A DNA stretch of 64,000 bases from NCBI RefSeq assembly GCF_963678225.1, contig NZ_OY782764.1:1927001-1991000 (forward strand). The letters run 5' to 3'. Made by a program: the position numbers and the translations under genes. Position 1 is the stretch's first letter. Each line of letters opens with the position of its first letter. The notes below the pieces were generated by a model. It was given only the letters and a program-made list of their open reading frames with translations. It was not told where the DNA came from and did no database searches. Positions 3 through 57,945 of this stretch are shown here, piece after piece. This stretch comes from an uncultured Cohaesibacter sp. GTDB lineage: Bacteria; Pseudomonadota; Alphaproteobacteria; Rhizobiales; Cohaesibacteraceae.

Positions 3-689
3 ACCCGCACCAAGCTCAAACAGGCCGGTTTTCGTCTTGAAAAGCATGTCATGACTTTCACCTTCGCACGTATCATAGGGCCTTTCGCCGGCTTGCTGAT
101 ATCGCTGTTCTATGTCTTCGTCATGTTGAAGCCTGACTATCCGCCGATGGTAAACCTGTTTATGTGCGTGCTGTTTGCCTATGCCTGCTATTATGCGCCC
201 TTGCTCTATTTGCAGAATGTGAGAAACAAGAGGCAGGCGTCCATCACAAGGGCTTGGCCGGATGCGCTGGATCTGCTCCTGATATGTGTGGAATCCGGCA
301 TGACCGCCGAAATGGGTTTCCAGAAGGTTGCTACCGAGATCGGAACCGCCAGCGTCGAGCTGGCAGAGGAATTGACCATCCTGACTGCAGAGCTGTCCTA
401 TTTGCAGGACCGGCGGATTGCCTATGAAAATATCTCAGATCGTACCGGGCTGGAAGGGGTCCGCGGTGTGATGACGTCGCTCATTCAGGCCGAGCGCTAC
501 GGAACGCCCCTGGGGGACGCTATTCGCGTGATGGCCGAAGAAAACCGCTTGGCCCGCATGACGGCTGCCGAGAAAAAGGCCGCTGCCCTACCGCCAAAGC
601 TGACCGTGCCGATGATCCTGTTTTTCCTGCCTGCGATTTTCATCGTGGTTCTGGGGCCAATTGCCGTGCAGTATTTCACGACCCACTAG
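3..689 (+). CDS. tadC: TadC-type pilus assembly inner-membrane protein (5' end outside window)
   Basis: The reading frame is open from the left edge, so the gene is truncated at its 5' end; the first ATG at 51 is internal. The visible 228 residues hold a type II secretion F (GspF/TadC) domain, with a soluble stretch containing LDLLLICVESGMTAEMGF and a C-terminal hydrophobic segment ending a few residues before the stop. TadC pairs with TadB as the inner-membrane platform of tight-adherence (Flp) pili. The next gene, a TadD-like lipoprotein, points the other way, and the two share a hairpin between them. The family assignment is strong; the N-terminal length cannot be given. Confidence 0.9.
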   Translation, partial: TRTKLKQAGFRLEKHVMTFTFARIIGPFAGLLISLFYVFVMLKPDYPPMVNLFMCVLFAYACYYAPLLYLQNVRNKRQASITRAWPDALDLLLICVESGMTAEMGFQKVATEIGTASVELAEELTILTAELSYLQDRRIAYENISDRTGLEGVRGVMTSLIQAERYGTPLGDAIRVMAEENRLARMTAAEKKAAALPPKLTVPMILFFLPAIFIVVLGPIAVQYFTTH

Positions 690-54809: not shown

Positions 54810-54838
54810 CAAAAGAGGCGCTTTTGGAAAAGCGCCCC
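54810..54838 (-). terminator. Terminator downstream of metZ
   Basis: The inverted repeat GGCGCTTTT/AAAAGCGCC (54817-54825 and 54828-54836) is followed on the minus strand by TCTTTTGCG. It is about 35 bases after the metZ stop. The loop is tight, so the inner pairs probably open. Confidence 0.75.
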
Positions 54839-54870
54839 TGAAATTGGTGAATAGCTCTGTTGGATGACGA

Positions 54871-56067
54871 TCAGAGGCTCGCAAGTGCCTGCTCAAAGTC
54901 TTCCCAAAGATCTTCTACATCTTCAAGACCAACCGAGAAGCGCAGTGTACCCTGACCGATGCCAGCCGCAGCCAGTTGATCGTCGGTGAGGCGCTGATGT
55001 GTGGTGGTGGCCGGATGGGTGATCAGGCTTTTGGCGTCGCCCAGATTGTTGGAAATCTTGATGACCTTGAGGGCATTTTCCAGCTGGAAGGCTTTTTCCT
55101 TGCCGCCAGCCACGTTGAGCGCAACCATGGTAGAGCCGCCACGCATCTGCTTCTTGCAGACGTCAGCCTGCGGATGATCTTCTCGGCCGGGATAGAAAAT
55201 GCGCTCGATGGCTTTGTGCTCTGCCAGACGGTCGGCAAGAATGCCCGCGCTCAGGGTCTGTTCCTTCACACGCAGAGGGAAGGTTTCCAGCCCCTTGAGC
55301 ATGATCCATGCATTGAACGGGGAAAGCGACGGGCCGGTATGGCGATGGATATCCTTGAATTCTTCTTCCAAAAACTGTTCGGTCGACAACACGACACCAC
55401 CCAGACATCGACCCTGACCATCAATATGCTTGGTGGCAGAGTAGATGACCACGTCAGCACCAAGCGCCAGCGGGCTTTGCCACATGGCCGTAGCAAACAC
55501 GTTATCGACAACCAGCTTCGCACCGGCTTCATGCGCAATTTCGGCAACGCCGGCAATATCGATGACGGACAGAACCGGGTTGGTCGGGCTTTCAAGGAAA
55601 CAGGCGCGGGTGTTTGGCCGCATCGCTGCTTTCCATTCCTCAAGATTGGTGCCATCGACCAAAGTGCATTCAACGCCGAAGCGGGGCAGCAACTCCGAAA
55701 CGATGTAAAGACAGGAGCCGAACAGGGCACTGGCAGCCACGACATGGTCTCCTGCCTTCACGCAAGAGAGCATCGCCGATGAAACAGCCGCCATGCCGGA
55801 GGCCGTGCCGCGTGCGCCTTCTGCGCCTTCCAGCAGCGCCATACGGCTTTCGAACATGGAGACGGTCGGGTTGGCATACCGCGAATAGACATAGCCCGGT
55901 TCCTCGCCATTGAAGCGGGCCTCCTGAGCTTCCGCACTGTCATAGACGTAACCCTGCGTCATGAAAAGCGCTTCGGATGTTTCCCCCCACTGCGAACGCA
56001 TAGCGCCTCCATGGACCATTTCGGTCGCTGGGCGGTAACCGGTTTCGGGCTTTTTGGTCTCAGACAT
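54871..56067 (-). CDS. metZ: O-succinylhomoserine sulfhydrylase
   Basis: 398-residue PLP enzyme of the Cys/Met metabolism family. The PLP Lys213 is in SATKHIDGQGR; other parts are YSRYANPTVSMFE, GTASGMAA, ESPTNPVL and DNVFATA. The N-terminal YRPATEMVHGGAMRSQWGETSEA is typical of the MetZ branch rather than MetB or MetY. It makes homocysteine directly from O-succinylhomoserine and sulfide for methionine synthesis. AGGA precedes the ATG at 56067. A SAM-II riboswitch and terminator lie in its leader, so methionine (SAM) represses it. Confidence 0.95.
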   Translation of the reverse strand: MSETKKPETGYRPATEMVHGGAMRSQWGETSEALFMTQGYVYDSAEAQEARFNGEEPGYVYSRYANPTVSMFESRMALLEGAEGARGTASGMAAVSSAMLSCVKAGDHVVAASALFGSCLYIVSELLPRFGVECTLVDGTNLEEWKAAMRPNTRACFLESPTNPVLSVIDIAGVAEIAHEAGAKLVVDNVFATAMWQSPLALGADVVIYSATKHIDGQGRCLGGVVLSTEQFLEEEFKDIHRHTGPSLSPFNAWIMLKGLETFPLRVKEQTLSAGILADRLAEHKAIERIFYPGREDHPQADVCKKQMRGGSTMVALNVAGGKEKAFQLENALKVIKISNNLGDAKSLITHPATTTHQRLTDDQLAAAGIGQGTLRFSVGLEDVEDLWEDFEQALASL

Positions 56068-56161
56068 GGCTCAATCCTGTTCTTGTTTTGCCCACACGCC
56101 GTCCGGAGCAGAACACCGCGAGACGTCGGGCTCATTCTTCGTGAGTGGCCGGATTTTGGGC

Positions 56162-56198
56162 AAAATAAAACCCGGCGTCATAGGTTAGTATGGCCGGG
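56162..56198 (-). terminator. Riboswitch terminator in the metZ leader
   Basis: The stem CCCGGC/GCCGGG (56193-56198 with 56171-56176, 16-base loop) is followed on the minus strand by TTTTATTTTG. It stands between the SAM-II aptamer and metZ, about 95 bases before the start codon. Its 5' arm (56192-56200) can pair instead with 56213-56222, the 3' end of the aptamer. Confidence 0.8.
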
Positions 56199-56212
56199 AT
56201 AGACTGTTTTTC

Positions 56213-56278
56213 ATCCCCGACCTTTTAGCAACATTCTTTTACGTGGCGGCAAGCCGGTCGGCTCAAATGACCACAAGT
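56213..56278 (-). promoter_or_regulatory. SAM-II riboswitch aptamer
   Basis: On the minus strand the leader reads GTGGTCATTTGAGCCGACC, then GGCTTGCCGCCACG, then a short A-rich linker and GCTAAAAGGTCGG, a close match to the SAM-II consensus. The H-type pseudoknot is perfect: CCGACC (56256-56261) with GGTCGG (56217-56222). The P1 arms GTGG and CCAC lie at 56271-56274 and 56243-56246. SAM-II binds S-adenosylmethionine and is known before met genes of alphaproteobacteria. It begins at the predicted transcript start. Confidence 0.93.
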
Positions 56279-56285
56279 GCGACAT

Positions 56286-56314
56286 TCTGTACGCTCAAAG
56301 ACCCCACCTGTCAA
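56286..56314 (-). promoter_or_regulatory. Probable promoter of the metZ leader
   Basis: On the minus strand a perfect -35 TTGACA (56309-56314) is separated by 17 bases from a weak -10 TACAGA (56286-56291). Transcription would start near 56279, exactly where the SAM-II aptamer begins. Confidence 0.6.
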
Positions 56315-56369: not shown

Positions 56370-57041
56370 TTATGAATCCGAGGAAACACAATATTGGTGA
56401 TAGGATTTGATGACCCGTCCCAGCTCTCTGGAATCGCCACTCAGAATATAGGTTCCCAGCTTCTCGGGCAGATGACGCATCTTCTTGCTGGAGCCGCAGG
56501 TCTGGGTGACATCATAGCTGCCCAGTTTGTCAAAGCCATATTGCTTGACAAGGCGTTGCTCTGCTGATTCCGCAAACTCGCCCCAGACAGCGCCGCGCAA
56601 CCCGTGTTTGTCGCTCACATACTCCCAGATCTGCTGCTTGGCACTCTGCACCTTCTGCTCGATCTCTGGAGTGAAGTGAAATTTCAGGAGGCTCTGACGA
56701 CCCGGCTTGCTGGAAACCAGACTAGACTGGGTGACAGATGCGGTTTCCCTGATGTCGAGCCGGAATTCCTGCAAGCGAAGGGAATAGGGATCTGCGCAAT
56801 TGCGTGCGGTTTCAACCCGATTGACGATCTCGCAATCCTTCACCACCAGATCACTACCATAAGCGACGTTGGAGGTCTCTGAAAGCGCCTTCTGAATGGT
56901 GCTTTCCATCCGCGCCACTTCTCTCTTGCTGAAAAGCGGTTTGATCTTGGCAAAGCTCTTTCCTTCGAAAAGGGCCAGAAAGCAGATGGCAACAATGATC
57001 ACCGAGAATAAGGAGGTTAAGACAATAATGTTCTTTTTCAT
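56370..57041 (-). CDS. Exported or membrane-anchored protein of unknown function, paralogue A
   Basis: 223 residues. The N-terminal hydrophobic segment (IIVLTSLFSVIIVAICFLALF) may be an anchor or uncleaved signal. The rest is likely periplasmic, with Cys in VVKDCEIV, ARNCADPY, TQTCGSSK and YHQYCVSS. It aligns over its length with the gene at 57277-57945: shared order is Cys, R-N/G-x-C, EF-x-D/I, F-F/H-F-T, SAEQ, Y-x-x-TQ-x-C, HLP-x-x-LGT and YH-x-x-C at the end. No known domain recognised. It stops 302 bases before the metZ start region on the same strand. Confidence 0.7.
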   Translation of the reverse strand: MKKNIIVLTSLFSVIIVAICFLALFEGKSFAKIKPLFSKREVARMESTIQKALSETSNVAYGSDLVVKDCEIVNRVETARNCADPYSLRLQEFRLDIRETASVTQSSLVSSKPGRQSLLKFHFTPEIEQKVQSAKQQIWEYVSDKHGLRGAVWGEFAESAEQRLVKQYGFDKLGSYDVTQTCGSSKKMRHLPEKLGTYILSGDSRELGRVIKSYHQYCVSSDS

Positions 57042-57276: not shown

Positions 57277-57945
57277 TTAGCTGTTGATGCAGCTGGCGTG
57301 GTAATTTTTCAGGCTGTAGGCTGCACCGCGATCCACCGTTGACAGGCTGATGGTGCCCAGTGTTTTGGGCAGATGGAACTGCTGAATGCTCCGTGAGCAA
57401 TTCTGTGTTTTGGCATAACTGCGCATGCTGGGCAGACCTGCGCCTTTCACAGCATTCTGTTCTGCCGAATAGGCTTCCTGTGCCCACATGGAACCGGTAT
57501 AGCCATTGTTATGCTGATTGTAGCGCTTGAACAGCTGTTTGGCTCGATCAAATCGCTTTTGAACGTCTTCGGTAAACTCGAAGCGGATGGACCCTGCAGC
57601 ACCGGTGCCGCGACGCGAATTTTCAAAGATCCGCACCTTGCGAACATCCTTGAGATCTATCTGGAACTCGTTAAAACGTGCCGTCGGAGAACCTTCGCAA
57701 TCGCCCGTGCTGTTCAGCCTATAGGTGATCCGGCAATTGTTGACCTGCACCTGATCGCTGAAGGGATTGAAATAGGCCATATTCGATTCAAGGAAGGATT
57801 CAATCTTGCTTTCCGCTTCCTGCTTCTCGGCTGAAGTCAAACGTGTACCATTGAGCTGATTGGAGTTTGCCGGAGTCTCGTAAGTGAGAATGATACCTGT
57901 GATAAAGCAGGCCGTTAAAATGCAAACTGCTAAGAGCTTTTTCAT
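57277..57945 (-). CDS. Exported protein of unknown function, paralogue B
   Basis: 222 residues with a signal peptide-like start (MKKLLAVCILTACFITGIIL). Four Cys in the mature part match those of the neighbour at 56370-57041: VNNCRITY, TGDCEGSP, TQNCSRSI and YHASCINS. Both share HLP-x-x-LGT before the C-terminus and a SAEQ helix in the middle. The two genes are tandem on the same strand, 235 bases apart, suggesting an old duplication. I recognise no family; a disulfide-bonded periplasmic role is inference. Confidence 0.72.
   Translation of the reverse strand: MKKLLAVCILTACFITGIILTYETPANSNQLNGTRLTSAEKQEAESKIESFLESNMAYFNPFSDQVQVNNCRITYRLNSTGDCEGSPTARFNEFQIDLKDVRKVRIFENSRRGTGAAGSIRFEFTEDVQKRFDRAKQLFKRYNQHNNGYTGSMWAQEAYSAEQNAVKGAGLPSMRSYAKTQNCSRSIQQFHLPKTLGTISLSTVDRGAAYSLKNYHASCINS

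Follow-up and report, generated by a model that had tools for sequence, protein, structure and literature searches.

The window analysed here, a stretch of 64,000 nucleotides from a marine bacterium, an uncultured Cohaesibacter sp. (contig NZ_OY782764.1), carries metZ on the minus strand, preceded by a promoter-like pair, a SAM-II aptamer and an intrinsic terminator. These elements lie in the order and at the minus-strand coordinates given by an original prediction made from the sequence, whose observation on the element set is confirmed. The features of the locus are as follows.

56309–56314, minus strand: -35 box TTGACA, assigned from its position and from the conservation of TTGAC among leaders
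56286–56291, minus strand: -10-like TACAGA, a weak consensus match (3/6), with a 17-base spacer from the -35 box
56205–56284, minus strand: SAM-II (SAM_alpha) aptamer, Rfam RF00521
56270–56275, minus strand: P1 5' strand UGUGGU, from the RF00521 structure line
56242–56247, minus strand: P1 3' strand GCCACG, from the RF00521 structure line
56256–56261, minus strand: P2 pseudoknot 5' strand CCGACC, with six perfect pairs to 56217–56222
56213–56222, minus strand: P2 3' strand GGTCGG (56217–56222) plus GGAT, also the putative antiterminator 5' strand, from own-versus-swapped pairing and two-sided pair changes
56192–56200, minus strand: terminator 5' arm region ATCCCGGCC, core CCCGGC at 56193–56198, able to pair with the P2 3' strand or, alternatively, with the terminator 3' arm
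56171–56176, minus strand: terminator 3' arm GCCGGG, within GC[CT]GGGTTTT in the 17 genus leaders
56162–56170, minus strand: U-tract TTTTATTTT, the expected end of the short RNA, from sequence position
56148–56157, minus strand: AAAATCCGGC, which may pair with 56167–56176 as the 3' arm of a read-through hairpin, from dinucleotide shuffles, less clearly so in the swap test (357/5000)
56075–56078, minus strand: Shine-Dalgarno-like AGGA, from sequence position
54871–56067, minus strand: metZ, O-succinylhomoserine sulfhydrylase, 398 aa, start codon at 56067, by NF005696 and TIGR01325

The metZ product scored 688.3 bits against NF005696 (cut-off 675) and 547 against TIGR01325 (cut-off 510.05), and the gene was 99% identical to metZ of C. 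marisflavi; the search of named genomes returned 5 loci, three of them from Cohaesibacter. A terminator-like hairpin of 11 pairs lies just after metZ (54814–54839, minus strand), so the gene may stand alone as a transcription unit. Approximately 0.9 kb past the metZ end, the opposite strand encodes a sulphur-transport family protein (PF04143; 52867–53994, plus strand). On the other side of the leader, 56370–57041 and 57277–57945 (both minus strand) encode neighbouring paralogues of 223 and 222 aa, 31% identical and with hydrophobic N-termini by eye, neither of which had an NCBIfam or Pfam match at E 0.001. The leader also holds a 9-codon frame (56185–56214, minus strand), with its ATG directly after the GGGG of the P2 3' strand and its stop in the terminator loop; by eye, similar frames occur in several close relatives and are absent from others, and the Shine-Dalgarno spacing looks wrong.

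Aptamer identity and distribution

RF00521 matched 56284–56205 on the minus strand over model positions 1–79 of 79 (59.6 bits against a gathering threshold of 36; E 7.3e-11), and its structure line gives a P1 stem of 6 pairs. The perfect CCGACC/GGTCGG pseudoknot that had been predicted was found in the sequence as six pairs. The score lies above the family cut-off, P1 and P2 are both present and a methionine-synthesis gene, metZ, lies downstream, as expected of the SAM-II class. Single-sequence folding was uninformative as evidence, the stability of the 161-nt leader fold being not unusual (z -0.97). The RF00521 match is the only one found in the genome (assembly of 4.94 Mb in two contigs). 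The aptamer was found in 17 of 18 genomes of the genus Cohaesibacter, the exception being a genome that is 64% complete, and RF00521 matches were present in 52 of 61 wider relatives and in at least 130 of 169 genomes sampled across the order.

For comparison, 117 leaders (57 + 60) were collected, the 60 being hand-picked among the order-wide matches listed; one partial RF00521 match among the relatives (30.6 bits) was left out. The motif allowed 114 of the 117 to be oriented (L148, L149 and L152 could not be), and a metZ-like gene lay downstream of the aptamer in 101 of the 114.

Conservation of promoter and terminator

TTGAC upstream of the aptamer was present in 17/17 genus leaders and, order-wide, in 104/114 leaders compared with 73/1140 shuffled sequences. 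At the -10 position, the alignment shows TATAAG or TAAAAA in some relatives. An intrinsic terminator between aptamer and gene, as expected of an OFF riboswitch, is present in the window. When a terminator was defined as a hairpin of -11 kcal/mol or better starting at most 45 bases from the aptamer core, one was called in 17/17 genus leaders against 5/340 shuffled sequences, and in 89/114 order-wide leaders against 33/570. The genus alignment was conserved in blocks at TTGAC, across the aptamer core, in the terminator arms and where the U-tract begins. A generic promoter and terminator scan listed neither the promoter nor the terminator of the window, probably because the -10 element matches 3/6 consensus bases and the terminator loop exceeds the 8-base limit of the scan. 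What supports the element set is the RF00521 match together with conservation.

In 25 of the 114 leaders, the finder called no terminator starting at most 45 bases from the aptamer core. Five metZ-side SAM-II leaders, L049 (from genome G019), L061, L081, L083 and L085, lacked a called terminator close to the aptamer, and in the same five the start codon lies, by eye, within some 70 bases; the ribosome-site mode may be in use there.

Comparative test of the antiterminator pairing

The pairing on which the predicted switch depends, 9 bp with one bulged G between the P2 3' strand region and the terminator 5' arm, can be written from the sequence, and the energy model favours 7 bp without a bulge, GGUCGGG/CCCGGCC, including one U–G pair (-15.2 kcal/mol). 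To compare the pairing of each leader's own strands with that of strands swapped between leaders, the 89 leaders whose terminator starts at most 45 bases from the aptamer core were reduced to 77 distinct leaders; the swap tests thus omit the other 25 of the 114, and in them duplicates were removed and the tree was not modelled. In these 77 leaders, P2 has 6/6 pairs in 47 and 5/6 in 30.

When first run, on 49 leaders and with a less refined terminator finder, the swap test reached only 0.04. The final finder was stricter, hairpins being kept off the P2 strand, and the test was repeated together with a control pairing. The mean energy of the antiterminator duplex was then -13.30 kcal/mol for own pairs and -12.32 kcal/mol (sd 0.21) for swapped pairs (0/20,000 permutations; 77 distinct leaders), whereas the control, the P2 3' strand against the terminator 3' arm in the same leaders, gave no own-leader excess (-9.19 against -9.25). 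The own-leader excess was matched in 1, 7, 1 and 2 of 5000 permutations in four random draws of one leader per genus (49 leaders), in 0/20,000 permutations for the 72 distinct metZ leaders only, and in 37/5000 within the genus (17 leaders).

Changes on both sides of the helix were also seen. A–U replaced G–C at core position 2 in 3/77 leaders, and U–A replaced C–G at position 3 in 7/77 and at position 4 in 1/77; the partner assignments behind these counts lean towards pairing because they were taken from the best duplex, while the swap test treats own and foreign strands alike. Matching terminator arms accompanied diverged P2 strands in L048, L056, L066, L088, L133 and L138, the clearest single compensatory case being L088 (G022; a 1.4-Mb genome), with a matching antiterminator of 12 pairs. 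L086, also with a diverged P2, had no matching arm (duplex -3.7), and the antiterminator duplex was weaker than -10 kcal/mol in 14 of the 89 terminator-bearing leaders.

The swap tests and two-sided changes together indicate a conserved antiterminator competing with the ligand-bound fold. Relatives conserve the mutually exclusive pairing of the P2 3' strand, and its match is specific to each leader, so that the outcome named beforehand as counting against the predicted model, a lack of conservation in related metZ leaders, did not occur. The switching model is thus supported by sequence comparison.

Folding of the leader

The folding programs represent neither the pseudoknot nor SAM. Folded up to the U-tract, corresponding to the absence of SAM, the window leader had the antiterminator in its best fold (-32.0 against -31.4 kcal/mol for the terminator), with pair probabilities of 0.40 for the antiterminator and 0.56 for the terminator; for the remaining 16 genus leaders, equilibrium favoured the terminator, with a pair score of at least 0.75. 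The antiterminator was present when the RNA was folded just before synthesis of the 3' arm, and the best fold contained the terminator when the P2 strands were barred from other pairing, which mimics the SAM-bound state. The SAM-free antiterminator state of the original prediction appears in the fold preceding the 3' arm, but no clear equilibrium 'on' state was seen up to the U-tract. With the terminator level with or ahead of the antiterminator at SAM-free equilibrium, the 'on' state would need kinetic control. The folding models suggest that the decision is probably kinetic, depending on whether or not the P2 3' strand is available at the moment the terminator 5' arm emerges.

A possible hairpin formed after read-through

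In the window, 56167–56176 (the terminator 3' arm and U-tract) can form 10 pairs with 56148–56157, giving a hairpin that spans 56148–56176. This hairpin beat dinucleotide shuffles at p<0.05 in 15 of the 17 genus leaders (the exceptions being G015 and G017), although these leaders are related, and it is formed by several different sequences; in the swap test within the genus, the own pairing was matched in 357/5000 permutations. In full-length folds, the antiterminated fold was favoured in 8 of the 9 leaders sharing the TTTTATTTTG U-tract of the window, a group drawn by eye and not from a tree, and masking 35 downstream bases lowered the antiterminated-fold score in these leaders. In the remaining 8 genus leaders at full length, the terminator stayed ahead, with an antiterminator score of at most 0.31. 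The decision at the U-tract precedes synthesis of the downstream bases, so the hairpin could act only afterwards. It is a tentative and rather unlikely reading that, in one Cohaesibacter clade, a helix between 56148–56157 and 56167–56176 locks the antiterminated fold after read-through; that 56148–56157 is in this latch a downstream near-copy of the antiterminator strand is likewise a speculative suggestion. If it is true, the latch would keep the metZ mRNA leader from falling back into the terminator hairpin, making a two-step riboswitch platform of a kinetic decision followed by a latch. As a general feature, the latch was rejected: outside the genus, 1 of 62 leaders reached p<0.05, and own pairs averaged -7.64 against -7.79 for swapped pairs.

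Discussion

What was observed here is that the parts of the leader are present and conserved and that the competing helices match each other leader by leader. Considered together, these observations make it very probable that a SAM-II riboswitch switches metZ off through intrinsic transcription termination, and we propose the following scenario, in which we infer that SAM binds, where transcription starts, in what kinetic order the helices form and that the stop depends on SAM. RNA polymerase would start near 56279, as judged from the promoter-like pair, and the aptamer would be made first. When SAM is bound, the P2 pseudoknot would hold the strand 56217–56222, leaving the terminator 5' arm (56193–56198) free to pair with the 3' arm (56171–56176); with the terminator formed, transcription would stop in the U-tract and yield an RNA of approximately 115–120 nt. 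When SAM is scarce, the free strand 56217–56222 would capture the terminator 5' arm before the 3' arm exists, and polymerase would read through into metZ.

A different use of the same aptamer is known from S. meliloti metA, where a start codon 74 nt downstream requires a Shine-Dalgarno sequence within the riboswitch and no SAM response is predicted for the terminator (PMC9373788). By analogy, SAM-II in the window could act on translation by masking a ribosome site within P2, with a constitutive terminator, and the P2 3' strand does continue into GGGGATG. No ribosome site was found inside or next to P2, however: P2 ends at 56217, and metZ has its own AGGA (56078–56075) beside its ATG at 56067, approximately 140 bases from P2. 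The poor fit to ribosome-site hiding that had been predicted from a distance of about 150 bases to the start codon is borne out by these coordinates, and the distance argues against such direct hiding. Moreover, P2 3' strand and terminator 5' arm are matched to each other, which a constitutive terminator would not require, and we thus regard translational control of this kind as very improbable. It seems equally improbable that the apparent antiterminator is a mere by-product of GC-rich P2 and terminator sequences. Swapped leaders pair at -12.3 kcal/mol on average even so, GGCCG or GGTCG opens the P2 3' strand in 70 of the 77 distinct leaders, and the diverged P2 of L086 lacks a matching arm; yet own pairs beat swapped pairs in the swap tests of the antiterminator, the equally GC-rich terminator 3' arm showed no such excess, and the six other diverged P2 strands do have matching arms.

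Compatible with the termination model is dual control, in which SAM-dependent termination would be combined with SAM-dependent stability of the leader RNA and the short RNA would have a role of its own. The riboswitch RNAs and mRNAs of S. meliloti are more stable at high SAM, but the same study detected no binding partner relation between the riboswitch RNAs and MetK (PMC9373788), and the window sequence holds nothing bearing on the matter; we consider dual control possible, though doubtful.

The SAM-dependent termination favoured here had been presented as a departure from the habit of the family, a view that does not hold, since terminators have already been described as common in SAM-II leaders (PMC1273637, PMC2258182). 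In many members of the SAM-II class a putative terminator lies between P2 and the ORF, and promoter elements are usually present immediately upstream of P1 (Corbino 2005, PMC1273637); an arrangement with a terminator is the most frequent one for SAM-II in alpha- and beta-Proteobacteria (Barrick & Breaker 2007, PMC2258182). The leaders described in the available portions of these two papers resemble the window leader in the promoter just before P1, the aptamer, the terminator between P2 and the ORF and the OFF switch, and no essential difference was seen there. According to a 2014 survey, the core target of SAM_alpha is metY, which it preceded in 26 of 30 genomes (PMC4239095).

The closest known parallel in gene and aptamer class is Sinorhizobium meliloti metZ, for whose SAM-II leader termination has been predicted (Scheuer et al. 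2022, PMC9373788). The two are alike in the predicted SAM-triggered intrinsic terminator and in the short leader RNA, approximately 100 nt in S. meliloti, where this RNA rises and metZ mRNA falls with the SAM level (PMC9373788). They differ in that 103 bases separate the beginning of the U-tract from the start codon in the window (43–105 in the genus) and in the extra hairpin possible in Cohaesibacter, a comparison in which the S. meliloti leader was not aligned by name. The metX SAM-II (PMC10907184) has the same aptamer class, but its ribosome site lies in P2, whereas P2 of the window is approximately 150 bases from the start codon. The best-studied compact SAM-II originates from the Sargasso Sea (PMC9373788). 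Our search of the literature on Cohaesibacter and riboswitches, which turned up a paper on a denitrifying reactor, found no published SAM measurement for this organism. Among open-licence papers, covered mostly as titles and listings, we saw no test of covariation for the antiterminator of a SAM-II riboswitch; covariation models of whole riboswitches have been built with fluoride as the example (PMC13273304, 2026).

The mechanism of SAM-II termination is not new, and the window leader belongs to an already known kind; since its relatives share the same design, the switch is an ordinary, if well-made, example. Backed by an order-wide comparison, it is a further clean case of SAM-II in alpha-Proteobacteria often acting by transcription termination, in contrast to the translational example described in a review (PMC10907184). 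If the latch is real, it would also show how a leader that has been read through avoids refolding.
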